From Candidatus Kapaibacterium sp. (lineage in GTDB: Bacteria > Bacteroidota > Ignavibacteria > Kapaibacteriales > Kapaibacteriaceae), in the NCBI GenBank assembly GCA_018882895.1, contig VERF01000013.1, positions 1 to 49,414 of the forward strand: a stretch of 49,414 nt of DNA. The letters run 5' to 3'. This document shows, piece by piece, positions 2,239 through 4,660 of this stretch. How positions within the stretch are numbered: the first letter of the stretch is position 1; each line of letters opens with the position of its first letter. A program made the translations under genes and the position numbers. The notes under the pieces were generated by a model, which ran no database searches, was not told the DNA's origin, and was given only the letters and a program-made list of their open reading frames with translations.

Positions 2239-3420
2239 ATGAAGCCCCTTGCCATAATCATTGTCGCGTTTCTGGTGTATAGCGCCAACCTTGGTGCGCA
2301 GTCATACATTGAGCCCACCTACAAGATCCGCTCCACCAAGGATGTCTTCTTTGGAACGGCAAAGCGATTTGACGGGGGAACCGATACGCTGAAGATGAAC
2401 ATCTTCATGCCCACCAATGACAACGCCGTCAAACGGCCGCTGGTGGTGTGGGTGCATGGAGGGGGCTTTATCCAGGGCAACCGCGCCGACTTCAATTCGC
2501 TCTGCGAGACGTGGGCCAAGAGGGGATACACGGCGGTGACGATCTCGTACAGACTCGGCATTCATGGCGGGCTGCTTGATCCGCCCTTTGCCTATGATGA
2601 GGCCGAGCTGATACGCGCCTGTTTTCGGGGCATCCAGGATGTGCGCGGTGGAATACGCTTCCTGGTAAAGAACGCAGGCACTTATGGCATCGACACGTCG
2701 CGCATCATCATCGGCGGAGCCAGTGCAGGATCGATCGTGGCCATGCACACGGCATTTGTTGATGCACTCGATACCGTTCCGAGGGCCATCGGCAGGATCT
2801 CAGACGTCACCCGTTTGGCAGGCACGTTTGCGCGGCCTGACCTTGGAAGCGTCGAAGGAGACCTGCACACCGACGTGCCGACGCCCGGCATTGACGTGGT
2901 ACTGAACATCTTCGGAGCCCTGCTAAATCTTGACTATCTCGGGGGCGCCCCCTTCATCCCGATGTACAGCTACCACCAGACCGATGATCCTGTGGTGGCC
3001 TGCGGCGTCAACCGTGCATATCATGGCGTTGGACTCATTTCAGGCGCCTATCCCTACCTGTCCGGCACGTGCGCCATCCGAGAGGAACTCAAGCGCCGCG
3101 GCATCCCCGAATCGGATCGCGAGATGACCATCTATCAGGGGGCTGCACACGATGTGCATGACCCCGCGGGGATCGACCGGGCGGCGGCCGTGTTCGCGTC
3201 GAAGCGCATGACGCCCGCAACGTCGGTGAATGATGACCACGTCGCAACCGGTCTGCTTGACGGACGTTGGACGTTGATCGGACTCGACGGACGTCATATT
3301 GCCACCGATGTGGAACTCACCAGCCTTGGCTCGGCTATCGACGGCGTGTACGTTGCCGTGCGTGCCGGGGAACGTCGACTCCTTCTTCTGCGTGAAGGTA
3401 AAGTTGCCGCAGTGCGCTAA
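2239..3420 (+). CDS. Secreted alpha/beta-hydrolase (carboxylesterase/lipase-like)
   Basis: Signal peptide MKPLAIIIVAFLVYSANLGAQ; 'VVWVHGGGFIQGNRADF' oxyanion motif and 'IIGGASAGSIVAMH' nucleophile elbow. Confidence 0.8.
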   Translation: MKPLAIIIVAFLVYSANLGAQSYIEPTYKIRSTKDVFFGTAKRFDGGTDTLKMNIFMPTNDNAVKRPLVVWVHGGGFIQGNRADFNSLCETWAKRGYTAVTISYRLGIHGGLLDPPFAYDEAELIRACFRGIQDVRGGIRFLVKNAGTYGIDTSRIIIGGASAGSIVAMHTAFVDALDTVPRAIGRISDVTRLAGTFARPDLGSVEGDLHTDVPTPGIDVVLNIFGALLNLDYLGGAPFIPMYSYHQTDDPVVACGVNRAYHGVGLISGAYPYLSGTCAIREELKRRGIPESDREMTIYQGAAHDVHDPAGIDRAAAVFASKRMTPATSVNDDHVATGLLDGRWTLIGLDGRHIATDVELTSLGSAIDGVYVAVRAGERRLLLLREGKVAAVR

Positions 3421-3424
3421 CTGA

Positions 3425-3530
3425 CATTCATCATGAACTCTGCGTTGGCTGTCGAATAGCTTCGAGCATGTTCGACAAACGCCATTCCGCTGTATGCGGG
3501 AATCCATTCCGGAGTTCATCATGATGAATG
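3425..3530 (+). promoter_or_regulatory. Candidate branched structured RNA leader overlapping the RBS/start of the downstream gene
   Basis: P1: CATTCATCATGAACTC (3425-3440) pairs with GAGTTCAT(cat)GATGAATG (3512-3530); P2: GCGTT..TGTCGAA / TTCGACAAACGC (3442-3482); P3: ATTCCGC/GCG(G)GAAT (3484-3503). Confidence 0.5.
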
Positions 3531-4660
3531 TTGCACAGAGTCCTCTGATCCAGGATCTCTTCTCGATCACCTCGAAGCCGTGCCTCAGCCTGTATCTGCC
3601 TACGCATCGGACGCAGCCAGAACGTCGGGATGACCAGACTCGATATCGTCAGCTGGTGCGCACGCTCAGTGACTCGCTCAAGACCGCCTATGCAGATGAC
3701 GGGATGACCGATCTGCTGGCCCCGTTCCGGGCACTTGAACGCGACGATGCATTCTGGAACTCAAGGCGTCAGGGACTGGCCGTCTTCCGAGCGCCGGGCG
3801 TGTTCATCACTCAGCACCTTGACAGGTCGGTACCGGAGATCGCCGTGGTTGCCGATCACTTTCATGTGAAGCCCCTTTTCCGACTACTTCAGACGTTGGA
3901 AGATTACAACGTGCTCTGTCTCACGAGGGAATCCGCCCAACTGTTTGTCGGCAATCGTGATGGACTGGAGGAAGTGAGCTTTGCTACCGGACCGATGCTC
4001 TTGATCAACGAGATCCTTGGTGATGAACTCAGTGATCCGGGGTTCTCGAATTCGAACTCCGGCGGTACCGAGCGAACTGTTCCACATACGACCATTGAGG
4101 ATGAGGTTGATAAAGACACGGAGCGATTCTTCCGTCACGTCGACCGGTTGGTGATGGAGATCGCCTCGAGAGCCACGGGGCTACCCCTTGTTGTGGCAAG
4201 TCTCCCTGAGCAGGCGGCGCTGTTTCACCGCATCAGCCGCAACCCCAACCTGGTCGATGCCAGCATCATCGTTAACCCCTTCGGTATCGAATTGCGCGAT
4301 CTGGTTCAAAGGGCATGGGAGACCATGCGACCCTTTGCATTGGCTGAGAGTCAGACGCTGATCGAGGCCTATGATGAGGCGGCCGGACATCACGACGGGA
4401 TCGATGGGATCTTCTCCATTGCGCAGGCCGCCGTGGAGGGTCGCATTGCTACGCTCTTTGTGGAGGATTCTCGCCAGATCCCGGGCAAGATCGATGAGCT
4501 AACCGGCAAGGTTGTGTTCGATGACCTGGCAATGACGGATGTGAATGACCTGCTTGACGATATAGCGCGGATCGTGCTCAAGCACGGAGGCACGGTGATC
4601 GTTCTGCCAACGAACATCATGCCCACATCCACCGGGGCGGCGGCCATTCTGCGATACTGA
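3521..4660 (+). CDS. baeRF family (bacterial archaeo-eukaryotic release factor-like, probably family 3) protein
   Basis: 'PCLSLYLPTHRTQPERRDDQTRYRQLVR', 'RQGLAVFRAPGVF', 'VVADHFHVKPLFRLLQ' pattern of baeRF proteins; likely start MMNVAQ at 3521 (ORF track 3494). Confidence 0.7.
   Translation: MMNVAQSPLIQDLFSITSKPCLSLYLPTHRTQPERRDDQTRYRQLVRTLSDSLKTAYADDGMTDLLAPFRALERDDAFWNSRRQGLAVFRAPGVFITQHLDRSVPEIAVVADHFHVKPLFRLLQTLEDYNVLCLTRESAQLFVGNRDGLEEVSFATGPMLLINEILGDELSDPGFSNSNSGGTERTVPHTTIEDEVDKDTERFFRHVDRLVMEIASRATGLPLVVASLPEQAALFHRISRNPNLVDASIIVNPFGIELRDLVQRAWETMRPFALAESQTLIEAYDEAAGHHDGIDGIFSIAQAAVEGRIATLFVEDSRQIPGKIDELTGKVVFDDLAMTDVNDLLDDIARIVLKHGGTVIVLPTNIMPTSTGAAAILRY

Follow-up and report, generated by a model that had tools for sequence, protein, structure and literature searches.

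CRP/FNR-type regulators at class II promoters are positioned near -41.5 relative to the transcription start, and the genes of cbb3 oxidases are typical targets of FNR and FixK. In Bacteroidetes, the reported consensus of the -7 box is TAnnTTTG (PMC7366714). Balon proteins are hibernation factors that lack the GGQ and NIKS motifs and are not terminators (PMC10901736). In bacteriophage T4, long transcripts of gene e are silenced about 100-fold, while promoters inside the 5'-strand region of the leader structure give translatable mRNA (PMC3014915). In this report, we describe a locus of Candidatus Kapaibacterium sp. that invites comparison with all of these systems. The solid finding is a predicted CRP/FNR-type promoter, conserved among orthologues, in front of a gene for a Balon-family hibernation factor; promoters of this type apparently also stand before cbb3-oxidase genes in relatives.

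The window, that is, the whole stretch of DNA analysed, comprises 49,414 nucleotides of the genome here called G000; its closest relatives are G005, G009 and G010, and these four genomes are referred to as the clade. The features of interest lie in and around the gap between an esterase gene and the gene termed baeRF (Table 1). The assignment of the latter in the initial annotation is borne out, as the encoded protein (3521-4657) matches Pfam baeRF_family3 with an E of 3.5e-34, but it is more exactly a full-length Balon homologue. A profile built from 14 baeRF orthologues and compared with solved structures aligns over its full length (6-375 against 5-369) with chain 8rd8_B (E 6.1e-27). The record of this chain is titled “methyl-accepting chemotaxis protein”; we take it to be Balon of Psychrobacter urativorans. 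A full-length match to NCBIfam NF052287, the AOC03_06830 ribosome hibernation family, scores 161 bits (E 4.6e-47), which misses the equivalog cut-off of 330 bits and thus marks a homologue rather than a proven equivalog. The match to the MSMEG_1130 family is weak (E 9.6e-5), and neither GGQ nor NIKS occurs in the translation. The protein is best called a Balon-family homologue, with binding to the ribosomal A site as a predicted property. As to its start, there are candidate ATGs at 3521 and 3524; relatives favor the former, which is the sole ATG of the two in G006 and G007.

Table 1. Features of the esterase-baeRF region, in window coordinates
Feature	Position	Strand	Basis or remark
Esterase (BD-FAE / carboxylesterase) gene	2239..3420	+	Pfam BD-FAE, E 5.5e-19
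CRP/FNR-type operator (predicted), TGACATTCATCA	3422..3433	+	TGAC-N4-GTCA, 7/8 positions; overlaps P1 5' arm
P1 5' arm	3425-3440	+	RNAfold; duplex with start region also in G005, G009, G010
P2 hairpin	3442..3482	+	RNAfold; -7 box and predicted transcription start inside
-7 promoter box (predicted), TAGCTTCG	3457..3464	+	Fixed operator spacing; conserved block within otherwise diverged spacer
Predicted transcription start, ~3469	3467..3471	+	From -7 box and class II geometry
28-nt insertion bearing P3	3479..3506, boundaries +/- 5 nt	+	Degenerate copy of palindrome ATTCCCGC-N4-GCGGGAATCCA
GGAG ribosome-binding site	3511..3514	+	Invariant in G000, G005, G009, G010
P1 3' arm	3512-3519 and 3523-3530	+	RNAfold; spans ribosome-binding site and start codons
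baeRF gene (379 aa), homologue of the Balon family of ribosome-hibernation factors	3521..4660	+	Pfam, profile, NCBIfam

The esterase gene is co-directional with baeRF, and its stop codon occupies 3418-3420. Scans of 3200-3700 gave neither terminator-like sites nor sigma-70 promoters, and the esterase gene is a possible origin of read-through mRNA into baeRF. The esterase is retained as the neighbor in G005, G009 and G010 (71-73% identity) and in G001 (47%); in all four clade members, its stop codon lies a few nucleotides 5' of the P1 arm. Across the family, the genes upstream of baeRF vary, being an esterase, an epimerase-like gene or another gene. An epimerase-like gene lies immediately 5' of baeRF in G006 and G007 (L023, L045). 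The window, too, has a NAD-binding epimerase-like gene (216-908), separated from baeRF by an AAA/DUF4143 gene and the esterase. This distribution suggests that the neighborhood has been rearranged, the homology of the epimerase-like genes having been judged by eye.

The TGAC-N4-GTCA dyad recurs despite these differing upstream genes. It stands upstream of 13 of the 16 baeRF orthologues in the family, eight of them with all eight positions and five with seven, mostly 67-76 nt 5' of the matched baeRF start. A lone 7/8 match like that of the window is not significant, since 7-9% of shuffles reach that level; the evidence for the operator comes from its recurrence at one place across orthologues. 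When the whole family was searched with a pattern derived from the baeRF sites, 25 matches came back, against 9 in the reversed control. Six of the 25 precede baeRF, five precede a gene for a ccoI-type P-type ATPase adjoining ccoN, one precedes ccoN itself and one the gene of an EF-G2; in two more genomes, TGACAAAAATCA stands before ccoI. The site is absent from the ccoI/ccoN genes of G000, G005, G009 and G010, and exact matches within G000 are mostly intragenic, with no convincing target among them; the predicted regulon is deduced from the relatives, not from G000 itself. As for raiA/HPF as a co-target, no 8/8 site was found in 23 loci (two of them improperly framed), and one poor 7/8 match was seen, in G005.

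When 22 sites (13 before baeRF, seven before ccoI, one before ccoN and one before the EF-G2 gene) are aligned on the operator, an nAnnTTTG-like box appears at a distance of 35-37 nt, counted from the first base of the operator, with a score reached by none of 2000 shuffles. The spacing result is the same in a reduced set of 15 sites. Operator and box, sought together across the family, gave 42 matches spread over 24 genomes, the control giving 8; further matches stand before genes for secreted proteins and before partly identified genes, and some are intragenic. With the predicted transcription start at about 3469, the operator is centered at about -41.5. In G001, an EF-G2-like gene (contig C154, L074) has operator and box at promoter spacing, and the predicted regulon of that genome may accordingly include a second translation-related gene.

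A candidate for the regulator is at hand. G000 encodes one clear CRP/FNR protein (contig C42), and an orthologue is present in all 17 family genomes that have baeRF (partial in G006). Three (G011, G012, G020) of the seven family genomes without baeRF have no such regulator or a distant relative alone. In the nearly complete G011, there is no match to baeRF, the CRP/FNR regulator or full-length ccoN, as if the three had been lost jointly. Common to 19 CRP/FNR orthologues are an N-terminal CxxC and two more invariant cysteines, which would suit an iron-sulfur sensor. We infer that this protein acts at the promoter and that oxygen is its signal, operator binding and low-oxygen induction being predictions. 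We found no paper linking Balon with FNR or FixK.

The gap also encodes a strong predicted RNA structure. The initial annotation had described three stems hiding the ribosome-binding site and both ATGs; all elements lie at the positions given there, and RNAfold recovers the same fold: P1 with a 3-nt bulge (3520-3522); P2 with GCGTT (3442-3446) on AACGC (3478-3482) and TGTCGAA (3450-3456) on TTCGACA (3471-3477); and P3 with ATTCCGC on GCG(G)GAAT (approximately 3484-3504). The energy of 3415-3540 is -50.5 kcal/mol, against -32.2 +/- 3.6 for shuffles (z -5.06; 0 of 200 as stable). This stability is well above chance; 165 stretches of 126 nt from the window average a z of -0.17 (sd 1.15, lowest -3.7).

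P3 is an inserted dispersed repeat, found among the aligned genomes in the window's species only. The alignment of the four clade members has a clean 28-column insertion in G000 and a gap in the other three. The palindrome ATTCCCGC-N4-GCGGGAATCCA has 63 copies in G000 at two or fewer mismatches, against none in the reversed control, and the copies are often in tandem or beside other repeats. The idea that the entire fold is a mobile element was rejected, for the P3 part alone recurs in the genome. Other repeats were seen in the same settings. A second dispersed element, CGTCCCACGGCTGAAGCCGTGGGCTGAGCTGCAGCAGGGCGTGTTAGGCGT, lies beside ATTCCCGC repeats (G000 contigs C91, C127 and C33; L010, L011, L012, L018); its GTTAGGC end recalls integron attC sites, though no counterpart of the opposite attC end was seen. 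In several intergenic regions of G000 (L015, L017, L019), the ATTCCCGC palindromes adjoin short tandem arrays, for example GAATTACTGAAGTACT.

How might promoter and fold fit together? We propose that a class II promoter in the gap would drive the Balon-family gene, probably when oxygen is scarce; that the 28-nt palindrome was inserted into its leader in the window's species; and that, in the four clade members, the operator/promoter strand could fold back onto the ribosome-binding site and start through P1 and P2. The predicted start lies 3' of the P1 5' arm; therefore, mRNA from this promoter would be unable to form P1, the very circumstance that the initial annotation had named as refuting its switch. 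The esterase read-through mRNA would be the only RNA with both arms, so occlusion would be confined to it and baeRF translation blocked there, while mRNA from the gene's own promoter would escape. The computed accessibilities are, with one exception, consistent with this scheme. In RNA from 3421, GGAG has an unpaired probability of 0.00-0.01 and most of the ATG is buried, and the concealment of the ribosome-binding site and start claimed at the outset is thus predicted for any RNA containing both P1 arms. In RNA from 3469, the ATG is unpaired with a probability of 0.81-0.92; GGAG in this short mRNA of the window's species, however, stands at 0.02-0.39, mostly paired and partly in a weak local helix, which counts against the RNA part of the scheme. 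The predicted operator, the promoter geometry, the insertion and the clade-limited fold emerge from comparison among genomes; the existence of the read-through mRNA and its silencing we infer. We regard the composite, taken whole, as evenly balanced between right and wrong. A sharper proposal, that the promoter strand doubles as an anti-ribosome-binding site so that the factor would be made only from promoter-started mRNA while the neighbor's read-through stays silent, is tentative and, to our minds, somewhat unlikely.

The most serious alternative is that the fold has no RNA function and that the promoter alone matters. Complementarity between operator and start could follow from separate constraints (TGAC..GTCAT, ATGATG, AACGT), the remainder being the inserted palindrome plus chance, or DNA-dyad hairpins near the -7 box. 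When operator, ribosome-binding site, start and protein are held fixed, P1 gives p values of 0.012, 0.023, 0.071 and 0.039 in the clade, which leaves room for such an origin. Nor is covariation significant; the four sequences, a set too small for such an analysis, give one compensatory pair (G-C to A-U, columns 12/116), a result matched in 104 of 500 shuffles. Further, the fold is absent from nine more distant baeRF orthologues, which have no excess stability, and one genome without it, G001, has the same esterase-baeRF order. The insertional origin of P3 also favors an incidental fold. Against it, P1 and a hairpin occur in all four clade members although their spacers are only 30-58% identical, and GAA/GTTC, outside the operator and coding sequence, are invariant in the four. 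The duplex of operator strand with ribosome-binding site and start has energies of -26.2, -22.9, -22.5 and -17.6 kcal/mol in G000, G005, G009 and G010, the whole fold has z values of -2.6 to -6.6, and the inner-spacer hairpin around the -7 box gives -3.1, -4.2, -2.3 and -2.8 in the same order. The hairpins at the P2 position in G005, G009 and G010 differ from that of G000; P2 alone gives p values of 0.004, 0.004, 0.023 and 0.059 in the four, and 0.043 in G000 when the inserted part is removed. A clade-specific RNA function of P1 and P2 is plausible, short of established, and we judge an incidental fold to be nearly as likely as functional fold-back silencing, while falling short of even probability in its own right.

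Translational coupling is a much less probable explanation. Here, P1 would keep baeRF closed on an mRNA spanning both genes until a ribosome, on terminating at 3418-3420, opened it; the proximity of the stop codon to the P1 arm throughout the clade is what this model has in its favor. Yet baeRF has a conserved promoter of its own, co-transcription is unsupported, and a ribosome at the stop would probably disrupt few of the inner P1 pairs that cover GGAG.

The translation-control switch first suggested for the locus survives insofar as G005, G009 and G010 likewise have P1 and a hairpin resembling P2. Its specific forms (riboswitch, thermosensor or feedback from termination) are the least probable readings of all: a buried ribosome-binding site and start and a protein of the aeRF1-like superfamily speak for them, but the P1 5' arm is upstream of the predicted transcription start, there is no conserved ligand-type core (P2 varies by species and P3 is inserted), the one compensatory pair is not significant, distant orthologues have no fold, Rfam gives no match at the gathering threshold or at E up to 1, and the Balon-family identity, with its lack of GGQ and NIKS, deprives termination feedback of its rationale.

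Each part of the locus has a known parallel. The element behind P3, ATTCCCGC-N4-GCGGGAAT, fits the pattern of neisserial dRS3 (ATTCCC-N8-GGGAAT; PMC3898611), but it comes from another phylum, and the P3 copy is degenerate. The predicted promoter resembles the class II promoters that FNR/FixK-type regulators use at cbb3 oxidase genes in its dyad of the TGA-N6-TCA type near -41.5, its cbb3-oxidase co-targets and the cysteine-bearing CRP/FNR protein of these genomes. It differs in having a Bacteroidota -7 box in place of TATAAT and half-sites TGAC/GTCA in place of TTGAT/ATCAA; further, the cysteine layout of the protein is unlike that of E. coli FNR, and its binding to the operator is a prediction. 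In this uncultured lineage, a hibernation gene would thus share its predicted regulon with the high-affinity cbb3 oxidase. Another parallel is offered by mycobacterial Rv2629/Msmeg1130, hypoxia-induced Balon homologues (PMC10901736), a case of a Balon-family protein likewise under probable low-oxygen control. There, control is of the DosR type, whereas the operator here is of the CRP/FNR type, and the family match is the weak one given above. Low-oxygen control of Balon proteins by different types of regulator becomes testable as a convergent theme.

The fold itself illustrates that an operator in the DNA, start codons and an inserted repeat can together supply most of a strong intergenic RNA structure. 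The analysis also lays out conditions under which a structure of this origin could nonetheless shield a gene from read-through. Its nearest counterpart is the leader of the T4 lysozyme gene, e (PMC3014915). In both, long transcripts with both arms hide the ribosome-binding site and AUG (by prediction in our case), and a promoter within the 5'-strand region gives mRNA that lacks that strand; comparative prediction places the promoter at our locus within the structure and its start past the 5' arm. The promoters in T4 are phage late promoters rather than CRP/FNR-type, and the silencing that is proven there is predicted here.
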